Shown one piece after another: positions 8,201 through 32,428 of a stretch of DNA of 37,430 nt. Source of the DNA: a virus; IMG/VR virus record IMGVR_UViG_3300008108_000376, positions 1 to 37,430 of that record; one strand, given 5' to 3'. The stretch's first letter is position 1. Each line of letters starts with the position of its first letter. The translations under genes were made by a program, and so were the position numbers. Under the pieces are notes generated by a model. The model was not told the DNA's origin and ran no database searches. It saw only the letters and a program-made list of their open reading frames with translations.

Positions 8201-8555
8201 GGTATTCTCCAATGGAGATACACTTATAGGAGACTACATGGCTCCAGCAGTATACACAACTCGAAGAGTAGCTTCTACTACCGCGGGTGTAAACGTAATA
8301 TATTCTTTAGCTACTTCCTCGTACGACGGAGTATTTGTAGATTATACAATTAGATCTGGTTCCGTTGGTCGAGCCGGAAATTTCATGGCTATGTGGTCAG
8401 GTACAAGTGCGGACTTTACAGATAACTCTATAAACGGATTCGGCATCACTACAAACTTTGTGTTTGGAGCTTCAATTTCTGGTAGTAACTTAATAGTATC
8501 TGGTTCAGGTTCAACCGCAGGTTGGACAGTTAAAACAATAATAAGAGGTATATAA
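2286..8555 (+). CDS. Giant modular tail fibre 1 (2089 aa)
   Basis: A very long, Ser/Thr/Asn/Gly-rich, Lys-poor protein built of repeated units. These include many VTGSLRVSGS-type beta units, Ala/Ser-rich tracts with the units SASFAT and QAQNANTASYVLNAVS (DNA about 5330-5665 and 6640-7005), and three copies of a module beginning ADLLDGRDSSVFATTG, a pattern common in phage fibres. Two larger non-repeated insertions sit at about residues 310-460 and 608-980. The second ends with LAGLSDVNISGPTDGQALVY, a motif seen in many marine phage fibres, and these insertions may be binding domains. The C-terminal ~115 residues (DYTIRSGSVGRAGNFMAMW onward) form a knob-like domain without S74 motifs. The start (ATGGCAACC) lies 6 bases after the small gene. 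A role in host adhesion is inferred; receptor unknown. Confidence 0.85.
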   Translation: MATWKKIIVSGSNAHLAQITSSVLTNGNLVMAGVGGALKNSGLSFSGSSFNIGSNSIISTGTGSILTGSFSGSFVGTTNLPDLTAGAGISTFTYDGGATANVAVSGAATLVTNRLTRWSGNAFITSSLSDNGTIVSGASSLQLTGASSALTGSLHGTASWADLLDGRDSSVFATTGSNQFNGNQAITGSLTVTGQITAQTLNVQQVTSSIVYSSGSNVFGSSLSNTQQLTGSVSVTGSFTVTTTGTELQVTSTGVNLGNIVTDNHNVTGSLRVSGSATIVGNTFITGSTNITGSARVQGSINIGSSLSTISYNLPLSITLPAIGTKVAFLNVGINSVVKVELNGSENGFYQPILLTIARNSTGASITINKDNPFFHEHSNDIAFSSDTTTGDIFAEKLLYTTGRNFRISKVETLFGTATVLNGTLTSTIGVGTDQSVTRIGKALYITGANTAAQGNLDVSGTARIQNNTQVTGSFTVTTGSAIELQVTNLGVNIGNATTDTHNVTGSLRVSGSSTIVGNTAITGSTNITGSFIVTTTGTELQVTSTGVNLGNAITDVHNVTGSLRVSGSNTFVGNQTVTGSLLTTGSNTLIGTTFLTGSLNISGSETIKGYIQFEPVTANINTAISASYIYVSGSTNDLYFSQNSKGYSNTTRLRWLEGNLYTGLLHGGLITTQSSTVYQISSGSGIIVDLNASLNDDPYPVIQFLEWGNLSASIAPLTASFQQAFVGIDSTNNIFAQGTPFSNGQFDNIINIGGVFFQNQSTINGVKTQPSVAYGFEQSQNVFNRAFGPLKLSGYTLAPSGSSTGSLIVGSGTAYAPGSNYAIDPNEPYYSVDSGTNISKIFRYHQSGSTWVYNTNGGVGFPTIDPEQYSNNGTLTTVQPNDWSIQRVFWFPNSVIKAIVVYYGNQSYSTEADAIANINIESFVEAPNTAANAIYLGSIVIRGNGSLDTPADFTIVPGGLFRQVGGSGGGGSIITQTLAGLSDVNISGPTDGQALVYNSTAAKWENKSSISASITGNAATATSASFATTASYTFNAVSASFATSASLAQNANTASYVLNAVSASFATSASQAQNANTASYVLNAVSASFATSASFATSASFATSASQAQNATTASYVLNAISASYALNADLLDGRDSSVFATTGSNQFSGSQAITGSLTVTGQITAQTLNVQQVTSSIVFSSGSNVFGSSLSNTQQLTGSVSVTGSFVVTTTGTELQVTNTGVNLGNIVTDVHNVTGSLRVSGSMNVNGTPVSLGTGSNGQVTFWNGTTTQTGSNNLFWDNTNGLLGVKRTNPQVEIDVIGSIRSTSTIFSTTNQTNNIQTNGQNLVFLGSSSISYMTMFQSTGNLILQNGGTFTDAGFRLDVSGSTRLNGNTVVTGSFTVITGSAVELQVTNLGVNIGNVTTDTHNVTGSLRVSGSSTIVGNTAITGSLTATGGITGSLFGTASWAQNAVTSSYILNAVSASFASTASYVLNAVSSSFATTASYILNAVSSSFATSASQAQNANTASYVLNAVSASFATNALSASFATSASQAQNANTASYVLNAVSASFATSASFATSASFATSASYAVNADLLDGRDSSVFATTGSNQFSGSQAITGSLTVTGQITAQTLNVQQVTSSIVFSSGSNVFGSSLGNTQQLTGSVSVTGSLTVNNIPAILGSITSGQVAFGTGSNILGGDSGFTWDNTNKVLSLGGSTTTLPKFSINHESTSTTFVGDNQQAALRLRNSNATNNNFTIIQSNSSTGNIADAVIGFRHVDHTNSYGEIFFGTRGASGFAARWIIGTGGILQSNGAQTIQTSTGNLTLTTAADNGNIILSPNGTGSVLVNTTTNSGFRLDVNGTARVSGNTIVTGSFTVTTGSAVELQVTNLGVNIGNATTDVHNVTGSLRVSGSMDLTGNARISGSSVFSGSVVITGTPNTSISSSLIVYGSGSSQPVFTVQGSQGELFSITDSLSGSLFSVNDISGLPILEVFSNGDTLIGDYMAPAVYTTRRVASTTAGVNVIYSLATSSYDGVFVDYTIRSGSVGRAGNFMAMWSGTSADFTDNSINGFGITTNFVFGASISGSNLIVSGSGSTAGWTVKTIIRGI
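2769..3020 (+). repeat. Fibre module copy 1 (LLDGRDSSVFA...VTGSF)
   Basis: First of five long direct copies, in fibre genes 1 and 2, of a module reading LLDGRDSSVFATTG, then SLTVTGQITAQTLNVQQVTS, then SSGSNVFGSSL and TQQLTGSVSVTGSF. Similarity is visible at DNA level. This copy differs slightly (NQFNGNQAI instead of NQFSGSQAI). Confidence 0.85.
5330..5665 (+). repeat. Ala/Ser tract with 18- and 72-bp units in fibre 1
   Basis: Tandem repeats coding for SASFAT (6 residues) and a 24-residue unit SYVLNAVSASFATSAS plus QAQNANTA. DNA copies differ mostly at third codon positions. The same unit recurs at about 6640-7005 in this gene and in both other fibres. Confidence 0.85.
5676..6018 (+). repeat. 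Fibre module copy 2
   Basis: Second copy of the LLDGRDSSVFA module, full length, followed by the shared continuation TTTGTELQVTNTGVNLGN and VHNVTGSLRVSGS. It directly follows an Ala/Ser repeat tract, as do copies 3, 4 and 5. Confidence 0.85.
6640..7007 (+). repeat. Second Ala/Ser tract in fibre 1
   Basis: Same 6- and 24-residue units as the tract at 5330, again leading directly into an LLDGRDSSVFA module. Tract plus module therefore form one duplicated super-unit. Confidence 0.8.
7008..7245 (+). repeat. Fibre module copy 3
   Basis: Third copy. It matches copy 2 up to SVSVTGS and then diverges into a unique segment (SLTVNNIPAILGSITSG), marking a module boundary near 7240. Confidence 0.8.
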
Positions 8556-19365: not shown

Positions 19366-19515
19366 ATGGAAAATAACCTAGAAATATTAAAAAATAAACT
19401 TGCATTTTTAAACGACCAACTGCATATATATACCCAACAAGGTCAATTAGATGTAGTTGAACGTTTAATAGGAGAAATAGAAGATACAGAAAATCAAATC
19501 CATAAATTACTATGA
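19366..19515 (+). CDS. Small coiled-coil protein (49 aa), coupled to fibre 3
   Basis: A 49-codon frame of heptad-like pattern (LEILKNKLAFLNDQLHIY ... VERLIGEIEDTENQIHKLL), strongly suggesting a helical coiled coil. Its stop overlaps the start of fibre 3 in the sequence ATGA (19512-19515), a hallmark of translational coupling. It begins four bases after the upstream stop. Plausible roles are a trimerisation adaptor or fibre-assembly chaperone for fibre 3; this is inference from size, coiled coil and coupling. Confidence 0.6.
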   Translation: MENNLEILKNKLAFLNDQLHIYTQQGQLDVVERLIGEIEDTENQIHKLL

Positions 19516-22500
19516 AAATATTTTCACCAAATATAACAGGCTCTTTAATAGTAACTGGTAGTATTAACACTATTACAGGTTCATTAACAGTTACACAAGG
19601 GATTACTGGTTCTTTATTTGGAACAGCTTCATTCGCAATCTCAGCTTCACACGCCCAAAATGCAGCTACTGCTTCATTTGTACTAAACGCAGTTAGTGCC
19701 TCGTTTGCTACAAATGCCTTAAGTGCCTCGTTTGCTACTAGTGCATCTCTTGCTCAAACTGCTAATACTGCTTCTTATGTGTTAAATGCTGTATCTGCCT
19801 CGTTTGCTCCTATTTTCCCATTTACTGGATCGGCCCAAATAACAGGCAGCTTGGGAGTAACAGGTTCTATTAACAGCTCACAAGATATTATAGTAAACGG
19901 AGTAGATATAGGAGAAGGTGGAGGTAGTGTAGTTACAAATACTAGAATTGGTACTAGTGCACTAAGATGTAATACTACGGGTAATAACAACTCAGCATTA
20001 GGTAGAGATGCACTTTGCGCTAATACAACAGGGTGTTTTAACTCTGCAGTAGGAGTAAGTGCACTTTGTAATAATACAACAGGTAGATATAATTCGGCAT
20101 TAGGTGTTTATGCATTGCAAGCCAATACAACCGGTATTAGTAACTCTGCAGTAGGAGTAAGTGCACTTCGATGTAATACAACTGGTACTTGTAATTCTGC
20201 ATTAGGTGTAAGTGCGCTTTTTGCTAATACAACAGGTGCTAGTAACTCTGCAATAGGAGCAAGTACACTTCGATGTAACACAACAGGCACAGCCCAAGTA
20301 GCAATAGGACATGAAGCACTTTGCTCCTCAAACTTTGGCTCCACTTCCACAAACGCTAACGTAGCAGTTGGTTATAGAGCATTAAGAGCTAATACAACCG
20401 GGATAAACAATACCGCGGTTGGAACTAGAGCACTAGAAGTTAATACAGAAGGCATTAACAACTCTGCAATAGGACGTTATACACTTCGTAGTAACACAAC
20501 GGGTACTAGTAACTCTGCAGTAGGAGTAAATGCACTTTTAAATAACACAACTGGTACTTTTAATTCAGCACTAGGTGTAAATGCACTTTGTGCTAATACA
20601 ACTGGCAACGCTCAAGTAGCAATAGGTTATCAAGCACTTATTTGCTCAAACTTCGGCTCTACTTCCGCAAACGCCAACGTAGCAGTTGGTTATAGAGCAC
20701 TAAGATTTAATACAATAGGAGCATTTAATACTGCAGTTGGAACCAGAGCATTAGAATTAAATACAACAGGAGTAAGTAATGTCGCTATAGGTAGATACTC
20801 TCTTAGTAATAATACTATAGGTGCTAATAACTCTGCAATAGGTGCAGGTGCACTTCGATATAATACAACAGGTGTTAGCAACTCAGCAGTAGGTGTAAAC
20901 ACACTTCGTAGCAATACAACAGGTACTAATAACTCGGCATTAGGTGTCTATGCGCTTTGTGCTAACACAACAGGCACAGCCCAAGTAGCAATAGGTAGAG
21001 ATGCACTTTGTGCTTCAAACTTCGGCTCTACTTCCACAAACGCTAACGTAGCAGTTGGTTACAGAGCATTAAGAGCTAATACAACCGGAATATGCAATTC
21101 TGCAGTTGGAACCAGATCACTGGAAGCTAATACAACAGGAGGAAGTAATGTTGCATTCGGTTTATACACATTAAGAAATAATACTACTGGTAATTTTAAC
21201 TCTGCGGTTGGGGTAAGGGCACTTCTTTATAATACAGCAGGTAGTTCAAATACAGCAATGGGTTTAAACGCTCTTTGTATCAACACCCTGGGTAATGATA
21301 ACTCTGCATTTGGGGCAAGGTCACTTCGTGATAATACAACTGGCACACAAAATACTGCTGTGGGAACTGATGCACTTAGAAGTAATACAATAGGTGTAGT
21401 AAATACCGCAATAGGAGTAAATGCTCTTGCAGCCAATACAACCGGCACCCGAAATACAGCGATAGGTTTTAGTTCCCTCTGTAAAAATACAGCTGGAGCC
21501 TGCAATGTTGCATTGGGTATCTATTCACTCTATAACAACACAACCGGAAACAATAATATAGCAATAGGTCACTATTCATTATTTTGTAACACAGTATCAG
21601 ACAACACAGCAGTAGGTACCTGTGCATTAAGAAGTAATACAACAGGAGCATGTAATACTGCAGTAGGCTTAAATGCACTTTGTGCTAATACAATAGGTAT
21701 ACGTAACACAGCAGTCGGATTTTGTACTTTAAGAGCTAATACTACAGGTTATAATAACACTGCATTAGGTGTATATGCACTAAGAGATAATACTACTGCT
21801 TGTGGCAATACCGCAATTGGTGATAATGCTTTATACCGTACTACAACAGGTGGTTACAATGTTGCTATTGGAAAGGCAGCTTTATCGTTTAACTGTATAG
21901 GCACATACAATGTTGCAGTTGGTATGAATTCTATGCTTTTTACTACCGGTTGTAATAATACAGCTATTGGAGCAAGAGCTCTCCAAACAAATACTACGGG
22001 AAGAGCACAAGTAGCAATTGGATATCAAGCCCTTTGTGCCTCAAACTTCGGCTCCACTTCCGCAACTGCCAACGTAGCAGTAGGCTACAGAGCACTACGT
22101 GCCAATACAACAGGTACAAATAATACAGCATTAGGCACAAGAGCATTAGAAGCAAATACAACAGGAGCAAACAACACCGCAGTAGGATTGTATGCGTTGA
22201 GAAGTAATACAACAGGTACACAAAATACAGCAGTAGGACAAAATTCATTAGTTTTAAATACAACAGGAGGTTGTAATACAGGATTAGGTACAAGTGCATT
22301 AGGATCCAATACAATAGGTACTTACAACGTTGCTGTTGGTAGAGGTTCATTATTTGGAAATACAACAGGAGCTTCTAATACCGCCGTAGGATTTAATACA
22401 TTAAATGCTAATATAACAGGTACAAATAATACCTCACTAGGATTTAGAGCATTAGAAGATAACACAGCATCAAACAACACAGCAGTTGGTTTCTGTGCAT

Positions 22501-24995
22501 TAAGAAGTAATACTACGGGTACATTTAATACAGCACTTGGGCATACAGCTTTAAGATATAATACAACAGGAGCTCGTAATATTGCTATAGGTCACAATTC
22601 TTCACGTTCAAATACAGTAGGTAGCAATAATGTATCTGTAGGTTATCAATCATTATTTTCTAATATATTAGGTGATAACAATATTTCAATTGGATTGTGT
22701 GCTTTATTTTCAAATACAGCATCAAACAACACAGCAGTTGGTGCAAGTGCATTAAGAGCTAATACAACAGGTACAGAAAATACCGCTGTAGGTTTAAGTG
22801 CATTAAGATGTAATACAATAGGTGATCTCAATACAGCACTTGGTTCTAGTGCTTTAGAACAAAATACAACAGGTAGAGCAAATGTAGCTGTGGGGGTAAA
22901 TGCATTAGCTTGTAATACTACAGGTAAGTATAACACAGCTCATGGTTTGGCTGCTTTAAGACTTAACACAATAGGAGGGGGCAATACCGGTATAGGATTT
23001 TATGCCTTAAGAGCCAACACCGCATCCAACAATACAGCAGTTGGATTAAATGCTTTAGTAGCGAATACAACAGGTGCATATAACGTAGCAGTTGGGGCTG
23101 GTGCATTAGCCGCCAATATCGGAGGTCAACAAAATATTGCTATGGGTAATAGTGCTTTAGCAAGTAATACCGCAGGTGTATTTAACATATCTATAGGCAC
23201 ATCAGCACTTCAAACAAACAGTACAGGTAACAATAACGTTGCACTTGGACATCAATCTTTATTTAGCAATACAGCAGGTAATAACACTGCAGTAGGAACA
23301 TATGCTCTTCGTCAAAACACAACAGGCACCAACAACTCTGCATTTGGTTTATGTGCTTTAAGAAATAATACTACAGGTGCATACAACACAGCAGTTGGTT
23401 TCTGCACATTAAATGCTAATACAACTGGTGCATCTAATGCTGGTTTTGGAGATAGTGCCTTGTTAAGTAATACTACAGGTGTTAGAAATACGGGTTTAGG
23501 CAACAGTACCTTAAGAGGAAATTCATCGGGAAATGATAATACAGCTGTAGGTCATAATGCTTTAAGATGTAACACAACAGGTGTTAATAACACTGCAGTA
23601 GGTTCTAATGCTTTATACTCTAACGTAACAGGCTACTGCAATACTGCACTTGGTTTCTGTGCATTAAGAAGTAATACTACAGGAGGTTTTAATACGGCCG
23701 TTGGATATGGAGCTTTAAGAGCTAATACAATAGGTCTTAGAAACGTAGCTGTAGGTATAAATTCATTATGTTCTAACACAACAGGTAATAACAACACTGC
23801 AGTAGGAGAATTTGCTTTAAGATATAATACAATTGGAATAAATAATACCGCAATAGGTATAAAAGCTTTAAGATCAAATACAACAGCATCAAATAATACT
23901 GCACTAGGTACAAGTGCACTCTATTGTAATACAACAGGTATTAACAATACTGCAGTAGGTGTATATTCACTTTTTTCCAATACAACAGGAGCATGCAACA
24001 CAGCAGTAGGTTTCTGTGCATTAAGAGCTAATACTACTGGTACACTAAGCACCGCAATTGGTTTATGTGCTTTAGCAGCTAACACATACGCTTCTCTTAA
24101 TACTGCTATTGGAGCTTATGCTTTACGTTCTAATGTTGGAACAAATTATTTAGGTTGTTGTGGTAATGTTGCGGTAGGAACTAGATCTTTATGTTCTAAT
24201 ACTATAGGATTTGATAATGTTGCTGTAGGAAATGATGCATTGTGTTCTAACACAATAGGTGATCGTAATGCTGCATTAGGTATGAGAGCCTTAGGAAGCA
24301 ACACAACCGGTTTTGAGAATACAGCAGTAGGCACAAATGCTCTATTCAGCAATACAACCGGTACTAGAAACACTGCATTAGGTTGTGGTGCACTTAGAAT
24401 AAATTCAACAGCATGTTGCAACACTGCATTAGGTATGAATGCCCTAGAACTAAATACAACAGGAAATTGCAACACTGCAGTTGGTTTTGGTGCACAATGT
24501 AGTTTAGCAACTGGTGTAAATAATACAATAGCAGTAGGACATACAGCGTGTACTACAGCAACAACAGGTCATACAGTTTGGGGCAACAGTGGTAACAATC
24601 AATGTAACTGTGTTTACAAGGCATGGGAATTAGCATCTGACTGTCGAGATAAAGCAAACATTCAAACACTTCCTACTAAATTAGGACTTCAATTCATCAA
24701 TAAACTACGTCCTGTATCCTTTAATTGGGACTACAGAGACACTTACGTAAGAGAATGTAAATATAGTTACGGAGAAAAAGATGGATCATTTATAAGCGAG
24801 AAAAAGTCATATGGTGTAATTGCTCAAGAACTAAAGCAAACACTAGAAGAATTAGACGTTAAATTTGATGGTTTAGGGCATGATGAAGAAAAAGATGCTT
24901 ATAGATTAGGTTACGAGGAACTAATCGCTCCGATCATCAAAGCAATACAAGAGTTAAACACTAGATTAACAACAGTAGAAGAAAAGGTTGGATAA
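19512..24995 (+). CDS. Giant tail fibre 3 with YadA-like repeats and S74 chaperone (1827 aa)
   Basis: Order: N-terminal VTGS-type units; a short Ala/Ser tract (DNA 19640-19810); the linker DIIVNGVDIGEGGGSV shared with fibre 2; roughly 90 copies of the 17-residue repeat NTAVGxxALxxNTTGxx (DNA 19938-24580); and a C-terminal peptidase S74 intramolecular chaperone domain from residue 1709. The S74 domain shows SDCRDKANI, with Ser1709 and Lys1714 spaced like the Ser-Lys catalytic dyad of this family, then LRPVSFNWDYRD, YGVIAQELKQ, and a C-terminal coiled coil (IIKAIQELNTRLTTVEEKV). In this family the domain drives trimer folding and cleaves itself off before the Ser, so the mature fibre would end near residue 1708. 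It is the only S74 domain in the window. The start overlaps the small upstream gene (ATGA). Confidence 0.9.
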   Translation: MKIFSPNITGSLIVTGSINTITGSLTVTQGITGSLFGTASFAISASHAQNAATASFVLNAVSASFATNALSASFATSASLAQTANTASYVLNAVSASFAPIFPFTGSAQITGSLGVTGSINSSQDIIVNGVDIGEGGGSVVTNTRIGTSALRCNTTGNNNSALGRDALCANTTGCFNSAVGVSALCNNTTGRYNSALGVYALQANTTGISNSAVGVSALRCNTTGTCNSALGVSALFANTTGASNSAIGASTLRCNTTGTAQVAIGHEALCSSNFGSTSTNANVAVGYRALRANTTGINNTAVGTRALEVNTEGINNSAIGRYTLRSNTTGTSNSAVGVNALLNNTTGTFNSALGVNALCANTTGNAQVAIGYQALICSNFGSTSANANVAVGYRALRFNTIGAFNTAVGTRALELNTTGVSNVAIGRYSLSNNTIGANNSAIGAGALRYNTTGVSNSAVGVNTLRSNTTGTNNSALGVYALCANTTGTAQVAIGRDALCASNFGSTSTNANVAVGYRALRANTTGICNSAVGTRSLEANTTGGSNVAFGLYTLRNNTTGNFNSAVGVRALLYNTAGSSNTAMGLNALCINTLGNDNSAFGARSLRDNTTGTQNTAVGTDALRSNTIGVVNTAIGVNALAANTTGTRNTAIGFSSLCKNTAGACNVALGIYSLYNNTTGNNNIAIGHYSLFCNTVSDNTAVGTCALRSNTTGACNTAVGLNALCANTIGIRNTAVGFCTLRANTTGYNNTALGVYALRDNTTACGNTAIGDNALYRTTTGGYNVAIGKAALSFNCIGTYNVAVGMNSMLFTTGCNNTAIGARALQTNTTGRAQVAIGYQALCASNFGSTSATANVAVGYRALRANTTGTNNTALGTRALEANTTGANNTAVGLYALRSNTTGTQNTAVGQNSLVLNTTGGCNTGLGTSALGSNTIGTYNVAVGRGSLFGNTTGASNTAVGFNTLNANITGTNNTSLGFRALEDNTASNNTAVGFCALRSNTTGTFNTALGHTALRYNTTGARNIAIGHNSSRSNTVGSNNVSVGYQSLFSNILGDNNISIGLCALFSNTASNNTAVGASALRANTTGTENTAVGLSALRCNTIGDLNTALGSSALEQNTTGRANVAVGVNALACNTTGKYNTAHGLAALRLNTIGGGNTGIGFYALRANTASNNTAVGLNALVANTTGAYNVAVGAGALAANIGGQQNIAMGNSALASNTAGVFNISIGTSALQTNSTGNNNVALGHQSLFSNTAGNNTAVGTYALRQNTTGTNNSAFGLCALRNNTTGAYNTAVGFCTLNANTTGASNAGFGDSALLSNTTGVRNTGLGNSTLRGNSSGNDNTAVGHNALRCNTTGVNNTAVGSNALYSNVTGYCNTALGFCALRSNTTGGFNTAVGYGALRANTIGLRNVAVGINSLCSNTTGNNNTAVGEFALRYNTIGINNTAIGIKALRSNTTASNNTALGTSALYCNTTGINNTAVGVYSLFSNTTGACNTAVGFCALRANTTGTLSTAIGLCALAANTYASLNTAIGAYALRSNVGTNYLGCCGNVAVGTRSLCSNTIGFDNVAVGNDALCSNTIGDRNAALGMRALGSNTTGFENTAVGTNALFSNTTGTRNTALGCGALRINSTACCNTALGMNALELNTTGNCNTAVGFGAQCSLATGVNNTIAVGHTACTTATTGHTVWGNSGNNQCNCVYKAWELASDCRDKANIQTLPTKLGLQFINKLRPVSFNWDYRDTYVRECKYSYGEKDGSFISEKKSYGVIAQELKQTLEELDVKFDGLGHDEEKDAYRLGYEELIAPIIKAIQELNTRLTTVEEKVG
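19938..24580 (+). repeat. 51-bp tandem array coding 17-residue YadA-like repeats (fibre 3)
   Basis: About 90 degenerate units of the same consensus as in fibre 2. Four longer inserted units (near 20287, 20608, 20982 and 22008) repeat the AQVAIG ... NANVAVGYR super-unit. Some units are shortened by loss of the TTG turn (ANTASNNTAVG type). Confidence 0.85.
24636..24992 (+). other. Peptidase S74 domain with self-cleavage site
   Basis: Domain region inside fibre 3. The predicted cut is just before the Ser codon at 24636-24638 (LAS before, SDCRDK after the alanine). The released chaperone would be 119 residues. Confidence 0.8.
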
Positions 24996-25022: not shown

Positions 25023-25679
25023 ATGCGAAGAGTTCTAATAGGTACACCATCATACGATGGTAGAATTGATGTGTGGTTTGCTAACTCCTTAGTTAGCACT
25101 GTAAAAATAGCCGAGAAAAAAGGTATATTTGTACATGCAATCTACACCTCATACGATTCATTAATACAACGTGCACGAAATAGTCTATTCCGCCTTGCTT
25201 TGCAAGGTGGATATGACGATCTATTTTTTATTGATTCGGACTGTGAATGGGAACCAGAATGGTTCTTTAACCTGTTGGATCGACCAGAACCAATTGTAGG
25301 TGGGGCACTAATCAAAAAATCCGAAAAAGAAGGCTATACCGTAAAGCTAACAGACAAACAATTAAAATATTCCCAAGACAAAAAATTAATAGAGGTTGAT
25401 GGTGTAGGCACAGGCTTCATGAAAGTATCTAGATTTGCATTAGAAAAATTATGGGATATGTCCGACCCATACACATCTGAAGATGAAGAACACAGGATGA
25501 TATGTGATATTAAAGTTGAAAACGGAGATTTGATATCCGAGGACTATGTAATAGCAAACAAGTGGAAATCACTAGGCTACAAAATATGGCTAGATCCAAC
25601 AATTACACTCAACCATATAGGTATTAAAAAATATACCGGTGATTTTGCTAAATTCATTAAAAATATAGGATATGAATGA
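25023..25679 (+). CDS. GT-A type glycosyltransferase (family 2-like), 218 aa
   Basis: Probable sugar transferase using a nucleotide-sugar donor. The start MRRVLIGTPSYDG is the typical first strand and loop of the GT-A nucleotide-binding fold. The metal-binding DxD motif is visible as DSD at residues 71-73 in YDDLFFIDSDCEWEPEW. A downstream GVGTGFMKVSR loop and a SEDYVIANKWKSLGYKIWLD segment, then LNHIG, match the acceptor side of compact phage and viral GT-A enzymes. No membrane helix, so cytoplasmic. It is the first gene of the glycan cassette, 27 bases after the fibre 3 stop, and overlaps the next glycosyltransferase by 8 bases. Donor and acceptor cannot be read from sequence. Confidence 0.8.
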   Translation: MRRVLIGTPSYDGRIDVWFANSLVSTVKIAEKKGIFVHAIYTSYDSLIQRARNSLFRLALQGGYDDLFFIDSDCEWEPEWFFNLLDRPEPIVGGALIKKSEKEGYTVKLTDKQLKYSQDKKLIEVDGVGTGFMKVSRFALEKLWDMSDPYTSEDEEHRMICDIKVENGDLISEDYVIANKWKSLGYKIWLDPTITLNHIGIKKYTGDFAKFIKNIGYE

Positions 25680-26589
25680 TAAACCAATGGGCGGAACAGA
25701 GTTGATGTATGAGGAGTTAATGAAACGATTACCTCAAGAATACAAAGATAAATTCTCTATATTTACATATCCAGCAAATGCAGATGATACTAAATACTCT
25801 ATATATTGGAACCATTTATCATACGATCAACCTTCAGTTCAATTCCTATCTGAACCGACCAATGTAGATAAAATCAACAATTTTGTGTTTATATCACATT
25901 GGCAATCCGAGCAGTTCCGTAAGGTATATAACGTCCCGGGCTACAAAACCCAAGTAATAAAAAATGCATGTTTTGACGTAGAACAACGAAAAACTGGCCC
26001 TAGAGAAAAAGTAAAAATATGCTATACCTCTACACCTTGGAGAGGATTAGATGTGCTATTGCATGCGTGGGAATTAGCAAATACTACAGATTGTGAACTA
26101 CACGTATTTTCTAGTACAAAAATATACGGTAAAGATTTTGCAATCAACAACGAAAACTATTATCAAGAATTGTACGACAAATGCGAGGCGCTAGAAGGAG
26201 TAGTGTACAGAGGATTTGTTTCAAACGAAGAGTTAAGGAAAGAACTTTCTAGCTTTGATATACTAGCCTACCCTTGCACATTTGAGGAAACTTCATGTAT
26301 AGCTGTAATAGAGGCATTATCTGCCGGATTAAGAGTAGTAACATCAAATCTAGGAGCATTACCTGAAACAACTGAAGGTTGGGCTAGAATCTATCCTTAT
26401 TTAGCAAATAAAAAGTTACATGCTTTACATTTTGCTGATATATTGGAGGAGGAGATAAACAAGATTAAAAGTGGAGAATTAGATTCACATCTAGAACTTC
26501 AAAAACAGGTATATGCACCCCGATGGAGCTGGGATCAAAGAATTAAAGAATGGATAAGCTATTTAAACACATTAACCCCAAAAGGGTAA
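25672..26589 (+). CDS. GT4-family glycosyltransferase (GT-B fold), 305 aa
   Basis: Sugar transferase of the GT-B fold. The N-terminal half starts MNDKPMGGTELMYEELMKRL, where GGTE is the glycine-rich loop usual near the start of GT4 enzymes. The C-terminal half shows KVKICYTSTPWRGLDVLLHAW (start of the donor-binding domain) and the E-x7-E motif at E205 and E213 within CTFEETSCIAVIEALSAG, then VVTSNLGALPE. It is somewhat short for GT4 (often 350-400 residues), with a trimmed N-terminal domain. It overlaps the upstream GT by 8 bases and the downstream FkbM gene by 40 bases. No signal peptide or membrane helix. Substrate unknown. Confidence 0.85.
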   Translation: MNDKPMGGTELMYEELMKRLPQEYKDKFSIFTYPANADDTKYSIYWNHLSYDQPSVQFLSEPTNVDKINNFVFISHWQSEQFRKVYNVPGYKTQVIKNACFDVEQRKTGPREKVKICYTSTPWRGLDVLLHAWELANTTDCELHVFSSTKIYGKDFAINNENYYQELYDKCEALEGVVYRGFVSNEELRKELSSFDILAYPCTFEETSCIAVIEALSAGLRVVTSNLGALPETTEGWARIYPYLANKKLHALHFADILEEEINKIKSGELDSHLELQKQVYAPRWSWDQRIKEWISYLNTLTPKG

Positions 26590-27158
26590 TAGATGTAGGA
26601 GCACACGTAGGGAACTTTACTAAACAAATCTACTACAAGTATCCAACTTGCGAAATTGTAATGGTAGAAGCCAACCCAAACTGTGAACAATATCTAAGAC
26701 TTTTAGGTAAACCATATGACATGGTTGCTTTGTCCCACAAAGAAGGATATGGAGATTTATATATAGAAAAAATAAACCCAACTCCAACTGGTGCTTCTTT
26801 ATATAAAGAAAACACAGAGTGGTATGGAGAAGGCAAATACGAAACTATAAAAGTACCTACCTCAACACTAGATGCTAAAAACTATTTCCCCAACCAATCT
26901 ATAGATTTACTTAAATTAGATACTCAGGGAGCAGAATTAGACATATTAAACGGGGGACAAGAAACATTAAAACGTACACAGTATGCTTTAATAGAAACTT
27001 CACTAGCAGAATACAATCAAGGTGCTCCTATGATTGATAAAATAGTAGATAAAATGAACGAATGTGGATTTCATATAGTTGATATAATAGAGTATCATAT
27101 TTATAATGGATTAATCTTCCAGATGGACATTTTATTTAAGAAAAACCAATATTTATAA
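26550..27158 (+). CDS. FkbM-family SAM-dependent methyltransferase, 202 aa
   Basis: Class I methyltransferase fold. Motif I is DVGAHVGNF at residues 15-23 (SAM glycine loop), followed by the acidic strand end VEANP at 39-43 and the FkbM hallmark KLDTQGAELDILNGG from about residue 122. FkbM enzymes methylate hydroxyls of sugars and other small molecules and are frequent in polysaccharide and flagellin-glycan loci. The gene begins 40 bases inside the upstream GT4 gene, so the start MDKLFKHINPKR is fixed by the frame and by the short distance to motif I. Together with the two glycosyltransferases it suggests an O-methylated sugar. Its last codons overlap a copy of the ATATTTATAA motif. Confidence 0.85.
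   Translation: MDKLFKHINPKRVIDVGAHVGNFTKQIYYKYPTCEIVMVEANPNCEQYLRLLGKPYDMVALSHKEGYGDLYIEKINPTPTGASLYKENTEWYGEGKYETIKVPTSTLDAKNYFPNQSIDLLKLDTQGAELDILNGGQETLKRTQYALIETSLAEYNQGAPMIDKIVDKMNECGFHIVDIIEYHIYNGLIFQMDILFKKNQYL
27149..27158 (+). promoter_or_regulatory. ATATTTATAA motif before the 114-aa gene
   Basis: The copy overlaps the stop codon of the FkbM gene and lies 24 bases before the ATG at 27183. Another core copy lies inside the FkbM gene at 27098-27105. Confidence 0.4.
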
Positions 27159-27182
27159 TAAACATTTAAACACAATAAAACT

Positions 27183-27527
27183 ATGATCTTTGGTCAAATC
27201 AATCCTGTACTTAGCATGGTTAAACAGGATACCCTATTTAACCCAACTCCAGAATTTATCACTGGTTCTTACATGACTGCGGTTGCAAATCAATATGCTT
27301 TGGGAGCCCATCAAGTAAATTTCCGCGTAATGTACGGAGAATGTATCTTTGAAAACGGAAGCGTAGTAGATTTTAAAGTTATCCACGCAGACAATGTAGT
27401 ACTTTCTGGTAGCGCTATTGAAACTTGGGGAACAGATGATTCTATTATTTTAGAAGCTATTGCCGCAGAGCAAGGAACTACTGTTGATGCTATTGTATCT
27501 GGCAGCATGAAGAACGGTATGTTCTAA
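27183..27527 (+). CDS. Hypothetical protein (114 aa)
   Basis: Not recognised. It opens MIFGQINPVLSMVKQDTLFN and has a central beta-rich part (HQVNFRVMYGECIFENGSVV, FKVIHADNVVLSGSAIETWG) and an acidic C-terminal helix. The even composition and virion-protein style (VNF, GSYMTAVANQYALG) allow a small structural or decoration protein. Its position inside an enzyme cassette instead allows an accessory or target-specificity factor. It has its own upstream ATATTTATAA copy and a 29-base gap to the sulfotransferase. It is not visibly coupled to its neighbours. Confidence 0.6.
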   Translation: MIFGQINPVLSMVKQDTLFNPTPEFITGSYMTAVANQYALGAHQVNFRVMYGECIFENGSVVDFKVIHADNVVLSGSAIETWGTDDSIILEAIAAEQGTTVDAIVSGSMKNGMF

Positions 27528-27541
27528 TATAATTTGTAAAC

Positions 27542-27549
27542 TATTTATA
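27542..27549 (+). promoter_or_regulatory. TATTTATA core motif before the sulfotransferase
   Basis: Core copy only (flanks differ: C before, T after), with just 7 bases to the ATG at 27557. If a promoter, the mRNA would be almost leaderless; alternatively it is a processing or spacer element. Confidence 0.3.
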
Positions 27550-27556
27550 TAAAGTT

Positions 27557-28378
27557 ATGCTTAAAAAAGTGTTTTATAATAGCTCTTTACCAAGAGCAGG
27601 TTCTACTTTAATCCAAAATATACTAGGACAGAATCCAGACATCCATACAACCCCAACATCGGGGTTGTTTGAGATGATGACTACATGCCGAACATTGTTT
27701 TCAAATGGGATTGAGTTTAAAGCCCAAGATGTAAAACAAATGGAAGATGGTTTTAAAGGATTCTTGAAAGAAGGTATTTACGGATTTTACAACAACATCA
27801 CAGACAAACCCTACGTTATAGATAAATCCAGGGGTTGGGGAATGGAACGCGACTTTATAAACGCGTACGACCCCAACCCCAAAATTATCTGTATGGTGCG
27901 AGATCTTAGAGCCATCTATGCTTCTTTAGAAAAGAAATACAGAAGTAACCCACTAGTAGAAACCAACATTGCAAATTGGGGGGATTTAACAGGAACTACT
28001 ACAGACAAACGTATGCTAGTTTGGGCTAACAACCCACCAATAGGCCCTTCAATGGATAGGCTATACCAAACATTGGTAGCAGGTACTCACCAACATATTT
28101 TATTTGTTAAATTTGAAGAATTATGTATAGATCCAGAATCTCAAATGAAACGTATCTACGATTATCTAGAAATTCCATATTTCAAACACGACTTTGATAA
28201 TATTGAACAGATAACCTATGAAGATGATAAATGGTATGGTATATTTGGGGATCATGTTATTAGAGGTAAATTAAAGCCTGTTAAAAACGATTTTTACGAG
28301 GTACTAGGATCAAATGCTTGTAAAATAATTGAAGATAATAATAGATGGTTTTTTAACGATTTCGGGTATCAAATATAA
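27557..28378 (+). CDS. PAPS-dependent sulfotransferase, 273 aa
   Basis: Transfers a sulfuryl group from PAPS to a hydroxyl or amine acceptor. The 5'-phosphosulfate-binding loop is visible at the N-terminus as SLPRAGSTL (residues 10-18), and the 3'-phosphate-binding motif as VRDLRAIYAS near residues 114-123. A typical C-terminal KFEELCIDPESQMKRIYDYLEIP block follows (residues about 190-215). No signal peptide or membrane helix, so it would act in the cytoplasm, unlike Golgi-type carbohydrate sulfotransferases. It is the first gene of a tightly packed run (sulfotransferase, GT9-like, APS-kinase-like, nucleotidyltransferase, DUF2061), which suggests that the phage also supplies the activated sulfate. 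Acceptor unknown: glycan on fibres or host envelope are the main options. Confidence 0.85.
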   Translation: MLKKVFYNSSLPRAGSTLIQNILGQNPDIHTTPTSGLFEMMTTCRTLFSNGIEFKAQDVKQMEDGFKGFLKEGIYGFYNNITDKPYVIDKSRGWGMERDFINAYDPNPKIICMVRDLRAIYASLEKKYRSNPLVETNIANWGDLTGTTTDKRMLVWANNPPIGPSMDRLYQTLVAGTHQHILFVKFEELCIDPESQMKRIYDYLEIPYFKHDFDNIEQITYEDDKWYGIFGDHVIRGKLKPVKNDFYEVLGSNACKIIEDNNRWFFNDFGYQI

Positions 28379-28382
28379 AAAA

Positions 28383-29345
28383 ATGAATATAGGTTACAAG
28401 ACAGAAACAGATTTGCTAAAAGAAGAAACACTAGCAGTTCTAGAAGACAAGTCCAACGACAGTACTAAGTATGTTGTATGGCACATTGAAGGAGGGTTAG
28501 GTAAAAATGTAGCAGCTACAGCTCTTATCTCTTCAATAAAACAAAAACATCCGGATAGAAAATTAATCCTTGTGGTATCGTACCCCGAAGTATTCCTAAA
28601 CCATCCAGACATTCATAGGGTATATAGAGTGGGAGCAACATCTTATTTTTATGATGATTATATCAAAGATAAAGATACAGTTGTATATAAACACGAACCA
28701 TACTTTCAATCTGATCATATAATGCGTAAAAAACATTTGATCGAAAACTGGTGCGATCTGTTAGGAATTAAATTCGAAAAACAATTGCCTATTTTATACC
28801 CAAATATGCTACAAAAGGATATGGCATACGGGTGGAAACGTGATAAACCTACTATGGTTTTGCATACTAATGGAGGTCCACTTACGCAAAACAATCTATA
28901 TTCTTGGACCCGAGATATGCCATATGGTGTAGCCCAAGCTATTGCTGAAAAATACTCAAACAAATACCATATTATCCAAATAGGTAGAGATGAAAGACAA
29001 GCAGTACCTGGAGTAGAGTTTGTAAATGTTCAAATGACTAACCACGAGCTATTCAGCATGCTAGTTTTATCGGATAAACGTGTGTTAATCGATTCAAGCT
29101 TGCAACATGCGGCGGCCGCAATGCAATTAAAATCAACAGTATTGTGGGTTGGTACTACCCCTAAAAACTTTGGATATGAAATGCATTCAAATATTGTAGC
29201 AAATCCTCCTAAAGGTAATGTAAAAATGATCGATTCCTATTTGTTCGATTACTCTTTTGATGGTATCTTCCATGAATGTCCTTATATGGATATGAATGAA
29301 ATGTTTAATATTAACGATATCTTTAAATCAATAGATGCACAATGA
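28383..29345 (+). CDS. GT9-like (heptosyltransferase-type) glycosyltransferase, 320 aa
   Basis: A GT-B fold enzyme resembling GT9. The N-terminal loop HIEGGLGKNVAATALISSIK parallels the glycine-rich GDxxxT-type loop of heptosyltransferases. In the C-terminal domain MVLHTNGGP and then VLIDSSLQHAAAAMQLKST and VLWVGTTP parallel the DSGxxHxAAALxxPxVxLFG signature. The frame is open back to ATG 28329, but that start would lie inside the sulfotransferase gene. I prefer ATG 28383 (MNIGYKTETDLL), five bases after the sulfotransferase stop. The stop overlaps the next start in ATGA. No membrane segment. Donor sugar unknown. Related proteins occur in surface polysaccharide and phage glycan loci. Confidence 0.72.
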   Translation: MNIGYKTETDLLKEETLAVLEDKSNDSTKYVVWHIEGGLGKNVAATALISSIKQKHPDRKLILVVSYPEVFLNHPDIHRVYRVGATSYFYDDYIKDKDTVVYKHEPYFQSDHIMRKKHLIENWCDLLGIKFEKQLPILYPNMLQKDMAYGWKRDKPTMVLHTNGGPLTQNNLYSWTRDMPYGVAQAIAEKYSNKYHIIQIGRDERQAVPGVEFVNVQMTNHELFSMLVLSDKRVLIDSSLQHAAAAMQLKSTVLWVGTTPKNFGYEMHSNIVANPPKGNVKMIDSYLFDYSFDGIFHECPYMDMNEMFNINDIFKSIDAQ

Positions 29346-29758
29346 TAACAGTTTTGTTTGGTCAACCCCATTCCGGAAAGTCTACTTTAGCTAATGAGCT
29401 AAAAGGACACAATATAGACGGAGATAAATTAAGAGAATTATTTAAAAACAAAAACTTCACTCGTGAAGGTCGTATACAAAACCTAAACAGAGCCAGCGAT
29501 ATTGCCCACTACTTAAATAGTACAGGAACAGATGTGGTTTTGTCTTTGGTATACCCCTATAAAGAAGCAAGAGATTACTTAAGAAGTTTGACTAGCGAAG
29601 TAAAGTTCGTACATTTAACCTACGAGGTAGATAGAGGTAGAGAACAATATCACGTATCGGATTTTGAATATCCACAAGATGAAGATGTACTACATTTAAA
29701 TACTGAATGGCTAGAAATAAACGATTGTATAAAACAAATTTTAGAATATGTGGGATAA
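29342..29758 (+). CDS. APS-kinase-like P-loop protein, 138 aa
   Basis: Predicted to phosphorylate adenylylsulfate to PAPS, the donor for the sulfotransferase upstream. The Walker A loop is GQPHSGKST (residues 7-15). IDGDKLRE (25-32) matches the conserved LDGDNxR of APS kinases. FTREGRIQNLNRASDIAHYL then matches the FSxEDRxxNIRRxxExA block, followed by VVLSLVYPYKEARDYLR (family: SxISPYxxxRxxxR). At 138 residues it is shorter than usual (about 170-200), lacking part of the lid and C-terminal region, so activity or specificity may differ; another small-molecule kinase is possible. The start lies in an ATGA overlap with the GT9-like gene; the end overlaps the nucleotidyltransferase by 11 bases. 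Confidence 0.72.
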   Translation: MITVLFGQPHSGKSTLANELKGHNIDGDKLRELFKNKNFTREGRIQNLNRASDIAHYLNSTGTDVVLSLVYPYKEARDYLRSLTSEVKFVHLTYEVDRGREQYHVSDFEYPQDEDVLHLNTEWLEINDCIKQILEYVG

Positions 29759-30146
29759 AAAATTACACGTTAAATCATCATTGACCAAAAAACCAAATCA
29801 ATGGTCTTTGTTTATAGGCAGATGGCAACCTTTACATGAAGGGCACAAACAATTGTTCCGCCAAGTAATAGATGAAGGTGGTAAAGTGTGTGTTGCCATT
29901 AGAGAAGTAGAAATAGATGATAAAAATCCATTTACCTCTCACGATATAATGCTTAATATTGCTAGAGAAATGCAAACCGAAATCCGAGCCGGCAAACTAA
30001 AAGTAATCACTATACCCGATATCTGTTCAGTTGAATTTGGTAGAGGAGTAGGATACGATATTATAGAACATATCCCACCACAAGAAATAGCTGAAATATC
30101 TGCTACTAAAATAAGAGAAGATTTACGTACAAATGGTAAGCTTTAA
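29748..30146 (+). CDS. HIGH-motif nucleotidyltransferase (possible sulfate adenylyltransferase role), 132 aa
   Basis: Small Rossmann-like nucleotidyltransferase. The HxGH-type motif is visible as GRWQPLHEGH (residues 24-33) and the second signature, ISxTxIR, as ISATKIR (117-123). The family includes NMN adenylyltransferase, phosphopantetheine adenylyltransferase and glycerol-phosphate cytidylyltransferase, and the fold is shared with the single-chain ATP sulfurylase. Sequence alone does not fix the substrate. Its 11-base overlap with the APS-kinase-like gene and 14-base overlap with DUF2061 make an APS-forming (ATP + sulfate) role attractive. That is inference; a nucleotide-sugar activation role (CDP- or ADP-linked) would also fit. 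An N-terminal extension of about 18 basic residues precedes the first strand. Confidence 0.7.
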   Translation: MWDKKLHVKSSLTKKPNQWSLFIGRWQPLHEGHKQLFRQVIDEGGKVCVAIREVEIDDKNPFTSHDIMLNIAREMQTEIRAGKLKVITIPDICSVEFGRGVGYDIIEHIPPQEIAEISATKIREDLRTNGKL

Positions 30147-30342
30147 AAGACACATTGCAAAAACAATATCTTATAGAATAATAAGTACCAGTATTGGATT
30201 TGCTACAATGTGGGCAGTTACCGGTTCTATTAAAATGGGAGCCGCTTTTAGCATTGTAGAGCTACTTTGGAAACCCATTCAGTACTATATACACGAAAGA
30301 GTATGGTACAAATGGGTTAAATATGGAATAAAGAATGAATAA
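30133..30342 (+). CDS. DUF2061 small membrane protein, 69 aa
   Basis: Matches the DUF2061 pattern: basic N-terminus (MVSFKRHIAKTISYRIIST), a first hydrophobic segment (SIGFATMWAVTGSIKMGAA), a second weaker one, and the conserved ending YYIHERVWYKW. Two membrane passes are likely, about residues 12-35 and 38-55. To my knowledge DUF2061 proteins are often encoded beside sulfate-activation genes in bacteria, including Bacteroidota; their function is not established. Here the gene overlaps the nucleotidyltransferase by 14 bases and ends the cassette, which repeats that association in a phage. A role in sulfate uptake, enzyme anchoring or regulation is speculation. Confidence 0.85.
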   Translation: MVSFKRHIAKTISYRIISTSIGFATMWAVTGSIKMGAAFSIVELLWKPIQYYIHERVWYKWVKYGIKNE

Positions 30343-30703: not shown

Positions 30704-32428
30704 ATGGCAGAAACTCTATTATCTCCCGGTGTATTAGCAAGAGAGAACGATCAATCTTTTATACAAGGTCAGCCACTTGAAAGAGGAGCAGCTATAATTG
30801 GACCCACTACAAAAGGACCAGTTGAAACCCCAACACTAGTAGGTTCATTTAGTGAATTTACTAATATTTTTGGTGGAGCTGTTCAAAGTGGATCTAACGT
30901 ATATTCTTACCTTACTTCAATTGCAGCTAACAACTACTTCCAAAATGGTGGTACTTCTTTACTAGTAACTAGAGTAGTCACTGGTTCTTTCACCTCCGCA
31001 ACTAGCTCATTGATGCCAACAGGATCAGGTGGCCCAACTACTGGTTTATCTCCATTTGTACTTGAAACAATTTCTGAAGGTATTATTATGAATAGTACTA
31101 GTACTGAAATTTTAGGTTCTTTACCTTCAGGTTCAAGCGATAACATTAGATGGGAAATTCCAACTGTTAACACTGCTTCTGGGACATTTGCATTGTTGAT
31201 TAGAAGAGGAGATGACAATAACGTACAAAAAGTAGTACTAGAATCTTACAACAACTTATCACTAGATCCATACTCTTCTAACTATATTTCTAAAGTAATA
31301 GGTGATGTGAATTTCAATTTAGTTAATGATGGTAATGATTTTTTCATTCAACAAACTGGTTCTTATTCTAACATTTCTAAATATGTAAGAGTAAGACAAG
31401 TAAACTTTAATACTCCAAAATACTTTGACAATAACGGTATTGCTAAAGTAGCCTTTACAGGATCTTTACCAGCTGTAAGTTCAGGTTCATTTGGTTCTGC
31501 TGTTGGATCTAATATCCCTATAGGTAGAGCAGCTAACTTCTATAATAATATTAACGCTGTAGATAGCCAAGGACTAACAGGTGGTAACTATACAAATGCA
31601 ATCGCATTGTTATCAAATGAAGATGAATACAAATACAATGTAATATCTATTCCTGGTCTATTAGCTTCTACTCACGCTACTCAAACCACAGCCTTAGTAA
31701 ATAATACAATTAAAAGAGGTGATTCTATTGCAATTATAGACTTAGTAGGATATAACTCACAAATAAATGCAGTAATAAACCAAGCATCTGGATTTGATTC
31801 TAGCTATGCTGCTGCATACTGGCCTTGGTTGCAAACTATCGACCCTAATACAGGTGAGGCAGTTTGGGTACCAGCTTCAACAATGATCCCAGGTGTATAT
31901 GCATTTACTGATGCTTCAAGTGATCCATGGTTTGCCCCCGCAGGTATTACTCGTGGCGCATTAGGCCAAGTAATTAGAGCTGAAAGAAAATTAACCGCTG
32001 GAAATAGAGATGATATATATGAAGCAAATGTTAACCCAATTGCTACATTCCCTGGAAGTGGAGTAACAGTATTTGGCCAGAAAACACTTCAGAAACGTGC
32101 TTCTGCACTTGATAGAGTAAACGTGAGAAGATTGTTGATTGCTCTTAAGGGCTTCATCGGCCAAGTAGCAGAAGGATTGGTATTTGAACAAAATACAGCC
32201 GCTACTAGAAATAACTTCTTAAGCCAAGTAAATCCATACTTAGAATCTGTACAACAAAGACAAGGTTTATATGCTTTCAAAGTAGTAATGGATGAAACTA
32301 ACAACACACCTGATGTAGTAGATAGAAACGAGCTAGTAGGTCAAATATTCCTACAACCAACTCGTACTGCTGAATTCATTGTGTTGGATTTCAACGTGTT
32401 GCCAACTGGTGCAGTTTTCCCTGCATAA
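30704..32428 (+). CDS. Tail sheath protein, T4 gp18-like (574 aa)
   Basis: Forms the contractile sheath around the tail tube. The N-terminus LLSPGVLARENDQSF and then GAAIIGPTTKGPVETPTLVG, EFTNIFGG is the classic sheath opening. The C-terminal sheath domain is clear: DRVNVRRLLIALKGFIGQVA, FEQNTAATRNNFLSQVNPYL, and a closing FKVVMDETNNTPDVVDRNE, GQIFLQPTRTAEFIVLDFN. The middle (residues about 100-330) is the variable, surface-exposed domain region. The length is somewhat below T4 gp18 (659). Followed by the tail tube gene after 45 bases. It identifies the phage as a myovirus. Confidence 0.95.
   Translation: MAETLLSPGVLARENDQSFIQGQPLERGAAIIGPTTKGPVETPTLVGSFSEFTNIFGGAVQSGSNVYSYLTSIAANNYFQNGGTSLLVTRVVTGSFTSATSSLMPTGSGGPTTGLSPFVLETISEGIIMNSTSTEILGSLPSGSSDNIRWEIPTVNTASGTFALLIRRGDDNNVQKVVLESYNNLSLDPYSSNYISKVIGDVNFNLVNDGNDFFIQQTGSYSNISKYVRVRQVNFNTPKYFDNNGIAKVAFTGSLPAVSSGSFGSAVGSNIPIGRAANFYNNINAVDSQGLTGGNYTNAIALLSNEDEYKYNVISIPGLLASTHATQTTALVNNTIKRGDSIAIIDLVGYNSQINAVINQASGFDSSYAAAYWPWLQTIDPNTGEAVWVPASTMIPGVYAFTDASSDPWFAPAGITRGALGQVIRAERKLTAGNRDDIYEANVNPIATFPGSGVTVFGQKTLQKRASALDRVNVRRLLIALKGFIGQVAEGLVFEQNTAATRNNFLSQVNPYLESVQQRQGLYAFKVVMDETNNTPDVVDRNELVGQIFLQPTRTAEFIVLDFNVLPTGAVFPA

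Follow-up and report, generated by a model that had tools for sequence, protein, structure and literature searches.

Why would a bacterial virus carry, among its tail genes, a set of genes resembling those that activate sulfate and attach it to sugars? The question is raised by a 37.4-kb virus record (IMG/VR IMGVR_UViG_3300008108_000376; 37,430 nucleotides, hereafter the window) from a contractile-tail phage, a virus of bacteria. Positions 25023-30342 of the window hold a single run of plus-strand open reading frames (ORFs) that overlap or are separated by gaps of at most 30 nt, with a tail fibre gene carrying an S74 chaperone upstream and the tail sheath gene (30704..32428, +; phrog_23 tail sheath, 2.6e-74) forming the downstream boundary. 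An initial annotation, made from the letters alone, had listed eight genes in this part of the tail region; all eight were recovered at the same positions on the plus strand, and a ninth ORF of 114 aa had been omitted. We propose, with a probability of roughly 0.6, that the run is a phage-encoded sulfo-glycan cassette in which a compact nucleotidyltransferase (NT) forms adenosine 5'-phosphosulfate (APS), an APS-kinase-like protein (KIN) converts it to 3'-phosphoadenosine 5'-phosphosulfate (PAPS), and a sulfotransferase (ST) sulfates a glycan started by a family GT9 glycosyltransferase, probably on the fibre.

The ST gene (27557..28378, +), annotated as encoding a PAPS-type enzyme, gives a match to the Pfam family Sulfotransfer_3 at 1.6e-17 (65 bits against a cut-off of 27). 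Its SLPRAGSTL resembles the 5'-phosphosulfate-binding (5'-PSB) motif and its RDLRAIYASL the 3'-phosphate-binding (3'-PB) motif; the patterns PR.GSTL and K..mvRd.R....S are kept in 45 representatives, and the protein is distantly similar to tyrosylprotein sulfotransferase. KIN (29342..29758, +; 138 aa), expected to be an APS-kinase-like P-loop protein, has the P-loop GQPHSGKS, a Pfam match to APS_kinase (1.8e-12; 48 bits against a cut-off of 21.1) and APS kinases as its best profile matches in the Protein Data Bank (PDB; 2e-15). Its DGD26-28, R31, F39, R44 and N47 align with the DGD..R, aromatic, R and N residues of canonical APS kinases, which we take, from established knowledge of the family, to be the APS-binding positions.

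NT (29748..30146, +; 132 aa) proved to be the HIGH-motif nucleotidyltransferase that had been called, with HEGH and ISATKIR and a match to CTP_transf_like at 7e-7. Its invariant residues (GRWQ..H..H, R52, NP, PDI.S...GRGVGYD and IS.T..R) indicate a probably active adenylyltransferase of the HIGH superfamily, whose N-terminal half is similar to nicotinamide mononucleotide (NMN) adenylyltransferases (profile 2.5e-8) and whose remainder is unusually short. HEGH and ISATKIR agree with the HxxH and ISGTxxR motifs of Sat-type ATP sulfurylases, and core residues are invariant in 49 sequences. Because these motifs are common to much of the superfamily, they are not specific for ATP sulfurylase, and where the Sat type has the sulfate-binding motif QxRNPxH, NT has GRWQPLH.

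To place these genes in context, viral contigs were scanned, yielding 295 stretches related to NT, 29 to ST and 97 to KIN, and the fetched loci were annotated using profiles made from the window proteins. The counts below refer to 57 dereplicated NT loci with at least 3.5 kb upstream and at least 1.5 kb downstream of NT; as the searches that retrieved the loci used members of the set as queries, the informative counts are those of ST, GT9 and DUF2061 around NT. KIN was found in 57/57 loci, the small predicted membrane protein DUF2061 in 56, ST in 49 and GT9 in 47, and all four stood beside NT in 47 of the 57. Three gene orders prevailed, namely ST-GT9-KIN-NT-DUF2061 (16 loci), GT9-ST-KIN-NT-DUF2061 (16 loci) and ST-KIN-NT-DUF2061-GT9 (14 loci), with KIN adjoining and overlapping NT in 45. 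That the set is retained although ST and GT9 change position is what would be expected of a functional unit, and the cluster is a modular cassette that recurs in many uncultured phages. Phage tail regions do gather cargo, and the variable GT2, GT4 and FkbM genes (in 12-15 of the 57 loci) would suit a hotspot behind the fibre at which unrelated auxiliary genes had accumulated; the joint presence of KIN, DUF2061 and ST with NT in 49 loci of varied genome setting and gene order, however, makes such an assembly very improbable. The annotated set thus shows strong co-occurrence across diverse phages, and the single pathway first suggested is supported for a conserved core of ST, KIN, NT, DUF2061 and usually GT9, whereas GT2, GT4 and FkbM form a replaceable part. 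No DNA nearly identical to the window was found in named phages, so that the viral context comes mostly from IMG/VR contigs, and tblastn of KIN and DUF2061 against named phages gave no match.

Several loci carry additional genes around this core. In L022, L029 and L031, KIN-NT-DUF2061 occurs without ST and beside a NodU-type carbamoyltransferase gene, with a gene resembling nucleotide-sugar dehydrogenases in addition in L022 and L029; this is a further setting of decorated sugars. An HAD phosphatase of ~115 aa, weakly similar to the PNKP phosphatase, is repeatedly encoded between NT and one of its neighbours, KIN or DUF2061 (L086:6110-6448, L016:5348-5695, L151:8805-9146, L065:7655-8008 and L077:7634-7990) and is a candidate recycler of 3'-phosphoadenosine 5'-phosphate (PAP), the by-product.

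The assignment of NT to sulfate activation draws on bacterial relatives. NT is fused N-terminally to APS kinase in Omnitrophota, Planctomycetota, Scalindua and WWE3 and C-terminally in Staskawiczbacteria; the fused kinases are full-length in most cases (PF01583 at 1.7e-56 and 1.6e-54 in two that were scanned, both with NT N-terminal), and sulfotransferases are among the neighbours of bacterial NT-APS kinase genes. Kinase, nucleotidyltransferase and sulfotransferase are thereby tied to one another by fusions to canonical APS kinase and by neighbourhood, in support of the one-pathway idea. In a Marinimicrobia-containing class (120 genomes), NT was present in 11/12 genomes with an APS kinase or KIN that lack both Sat and CysD, against 1/64 others (Fisher p=2.5e-11); the corresponding figures for an Omnitrophota class, in which CysD-type matches were separated from other PP-loop matches by match length, were 6/14 and 0/33 (Fisher p=2.8e-4). 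This distribution suggests that NT occupies the place of the missing ATP sulfurylase, with the caveat that the genomes are incomplete and related.

The same data bear on the possibility that the module makes a sulfo-glycan with an NT that is not an ATP sulfurylase. KIN would then take APS from the host, and NT would serve to activate a sugar phosphate or some other acid; its association with APS kinase would concern a different 3'-phosphorylated nucleotide. The similarity of NT to NMN adenylyltransferases, the many substrates of HIGH enzymes and the few cassettes in which KIN occurs without NT (L089-L091, L118 and L160) would all be compatible with this, which we nevertheless judge rather unlikely given that NT is fused, in either order, to full-length APS kinases and is concentrated in genomes without Sat and CysD. 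Moreover, loci with ADP-heptose-like genes already own a sugar nucleotidyltransferase, and no case of NT without KIN was seen among the 57 loci, an asymmetry that fits NT feeding KIN. The kinase/cytidylyltransferase pairing of the O-methyl phosphoramidate (MeOPN) type, Campylobacter Cj1415/Cj1416, was set aside, as its nucleotidyltransferase is presumably of another fold.

In the Marinimicrobia, KIN-NT often lies near genes for class-IV-aminotransferase-like and Sulfotransfer_5 proteins (L186, L184, L189 and others), and a sulfated amine is a possible product there. Neighbours of 305 and 236 aa were considered as CysD and CysH and rejected; they are an aminotransferase-like protein, by sequence, and a Sulfotransfer_5 protein.

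A number of observations weigh against NT as an ATP sulfurylase and against the cassette as a whole. NT gave no match to ATP-sulfurylase profiles, PF01747 included, the solved structures closest to it are those of NMN adenylyltransferases, and a Foldseek search with its model returned no match below 1e-3. The lid/APS-contact segment of canonical APS kinases, KGLYKKARAGEIKNFTG, is missing from KIN and from the short bacterial KINs compared, which makes KIN APS-kinase-like rather than a canonical APS kinase; the NT fusions of L199 and L200 have the segment, as do the NT-adjacent kinases of L196 and L198. The orphan kinases that accompany NT in Marinimicrobia are all short KINs except in G018, which alone has a canonical APS kinase, so that this test is partly circular, and the genomes are small, incomplete, related and not phylogenetically independent. 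ST is absent from 8 of the 57 viral loci; one of these has a Sulfotransfer_2 gene, and no alternative sulfotransferase was identified in the other seven. Stenotrophomonas phages with a fused KIN-NT have no annotated sulfotransferase within 5 kb and no tblastn match to the window ST. Finally, the fibre is probably the acceptor of the glycan, a placement drawn from gene position alone. The description of the cluster as a self-sufficient sulfation unit hinges on the formation of APS by NT, which we infer.

In the Stenotrophomonas phages DLP6 and Bhz60 (L177 and L178), possibly examples of a different use of the same enzymes, the fused KIN-NT is surrounded by genes of DNA metabolism, and in Bhz60 a gene annotated as NADAR is close by. 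That neighbour, together with the NMN adenylyltransferases as closest solved relatives of NT, could point to a nicotinamide adenine dinucleotide (NAD) salvage pair, in which a nucleoside kinase and an NMN adenylyltransferase act as in NadR and have nothing to do with sulfation. KIN, however, matches APS kinases and not riboside kinases and keeps the DGD..R, aromatic, R and N residues at the APS-binding positions; with a sulfotransferase in 49 of the 57 loci and NT fused to canonical APS kinases, we consider NAD salvage improbable and rejected it on kinase identity and context.

The glycan to be sulfated would be started by the glycosyltransferase at 28383..29345 (+). It has no Pfam match and no PDB profile match, and the earlier GT9-like call was borne out through structure: an AlphaFold2 model (predicted local distance difference test, pLDDT, 86) found as best Foldseek matches WaaF (1psw, 9.6e-11), a Veillonella GT9 (3tov), TibC (4rap/4rb4) and WaaC, with a template modelling (TM) score of ~0.57, placing it in the GT9/heptosyltransferase fold. 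Its start is probably 28383 rather than 28329, because homologues start there and model residues 1-41 are disordered. One of these matches, TibC, is a heptosyltransferase whose substrates are autotransporter adhesins (PMC4358343). In L155 (8392-11005) five genes, encoding a cupin, an HAD-like protein, an HldE-like nucleotidyltransferase, a PfkB kinase and an epimerase, lie between KIN and NT, and the same insert is found in L131, L095, L153, L167-L169 and L172. The insert looks like ADP-heptose synthesis, and the HldE-like genes of these relatives suggest ADP-heptose as a putative donor for GT9.

The fibre directly upstream of the cassette (19512..24995, +; 1827 aa) is proposed as the glycan acceptor. 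It ends in a Peptidase_S74 chaperone (4.5e-9 at residues 1709-1781), contains 57 copies of a head-like NTAVG repeat motif, and is composed of 13.9% N, 14.2% T and 7.9% S. Most of the 57 loci have a long ORF of fibre or structural type ahead of the cassette; its architecture varies, and in many loci it has an S74-like end or is a repeat fibre. This position behind varied fibre genes favours the fibre over the host surface, which is the acceptor that might otherwise be chosen: GT9 enzymes classically make the core of lipopolysaccharide (LPS), DUF2061 is a predicted membrane protein, and bacterial relatives lie near genes of surface-polysaccharide type, so that the cassette could modify LPS or capsule during infection, for example as a superinfection block, and leave the virion untouched. 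Its place inside the late tail module of many phage contigs, and the protein glycosylation carried out by TibC-type GT9 enzymes (PMC4358343), lead us to regard host-surface modification as unlikely.

DUF2061 itself (30133..30342, +; PF09834, 3.2e-15), also correctly annotated, has a parallel in rhizobia. Two Mesorhizobium plasmids carry it next to nodBCIJ, flanked by a sulfotransferase gene on one side and by cysD-cysN, the NodPQ position, on the other. Five other plasmid records examined have no sulfur-activation neighbour for it, so that its link to sulfation is not exclusive, and a literature search on DUF2061 turned up only iron-response expression tables.

Taken as a sulfo-glycan cassette, the genes would act as follows. 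NT would join ATP and sulfate to give APS, and KIN, judged by homology, would phosphorylate APS to PAPS; ST would then transfer sulfate from PAPS to a hydroxyl, as its family does. The TibC/WaaF-like GT9, assigned by fold, would add the first (hepto)sugar, with the upstream repeat tail fibre as the most likely recipient, and DUF2061 may serve as a membrane helper of sulfation. In the sub-lineage with the optional genes, GT2 and GT4 would extend the glycan and FkbM would methylate it, the predicted product being a virion-fibre glycan that is sulfated and in some cases also methylated. The whole would work like the NodP-NodQ-NodH module with a much smaller sulfate-activating pair.

The optional genes occupy the first part of the run. 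Of the two adjacent glycosyltransferases annotated here, the second (25672..26589, +) stands as a GT4 enzyme with an E-x7-E motif (EETSCIAVIE; Glyco_trans_1_4, 3.2e-12; phrog_2170, 8.5e-34), whereas the first (25023..25679, +) has a DSD motif and only a sub-threshold GT2 match (19.1 bits, Pfam cut-off 23.3), with phrog_1574, a PHROG of unknown function, at 3.5e-25. The FkbM-type methyltransferase (26550..27158, +) is confirmed by PF05050 at 2e-25. The omitted 114-aa protein (27183..27527, +) has no Pfam or PHROG match and travels with the cassette in 17 of the 57 loci. Elsewhere in the window, a 2089-aa ORF of structural size (2286-8555) has a stretch of low complexity with a sub-threshold match to a Plasmodium histidine-rich protein profile, a signal that is probably compositional.

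These results link a phage sulfotransferase to a mobile, conserved module that brings its own genes for sulfate activation, together with a heptosyltransferase-like enzyme and a fibre gene, and thereby make sulfated virion glycans a testable prediction. We tentatively suggest, at somewhat less than even odds, that NT founds a third, compact class of ATP sulfurylase (~110-130 aa, NMN adenylyltransferase-like) that forms with KIN a minimal PAPS synthase, used by many uncultured aquatic phages for sulfated heptose-based tail-fibre glycans. If NT makes APS, this would be a third and much smaller ATP sulfurylase in biology, bacterial genomes seemingly unable to activate sulfate would need re-reading, and a two-gene PAPS synthase of ~270 aa would serve sulfation biotechnology. 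In the part of the literature covered, neither a phage cassette for PAPS synthesis nor an NMN adenylyltransferase-like ATP sulfurylase was found described, which is weak evidence of absence.

Among known systems, phage sulfotransferases are on record as annotations whose function is stated to be unclear (PMC10580990). Those of cyanophages and OM43 phages share Sulfotransfer_3 with the window ST at ~30% identity (PMC10580990); unlike the window, their records gave no tblastn match to KIN or NT. Mycobacteriophages resemble the proposed system in that phage enzymes glycosylate virion proteins, but there the glycans are on capsid and tail tube (Freeman 2023, cited in PMC12619734), and PMC12619734 makes no mention of sulfation in this connection. 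The autotransporter heptosyltransferases TibC and AAH share the predicted GT9 fold, and TibC works on a repeat adhesin (PMC4358343), whereas the phage GT9 is only 10-17% identical to them, is phage-encoded and is followed by sulfation genes. In phrog_10255 of Stenotrophomonas phages the KIN and NT domains are joined in one protein, as they are paired in the cassette, but DNA-metabolism genes surround it and no annotated sulfotransferase is nearby. Rhizobial NodP-NodQ-NodH likewise combines sulfate activation, a sulfotransferase and DUF2061 in one cluster, and nodPQ is needed for sulfated polysaccharides in M. loti (PMC6192434); the phage differs in having a 132-aa HIGH enzyme and a 138-aa kinase in place of CysD/CysN(C), and a phage fibre glycan as its proposed target. 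As in bifunctional PAPS synthases (Sat-APS kinase, human PAPSS and CysNC), the putative sulfate-activating domain lies beside or is fused to an APS kinase, but NT, which has no PF01747 match, would be a third kind of partner, independent of the others and found in bacteria fused to either end of the kinase.

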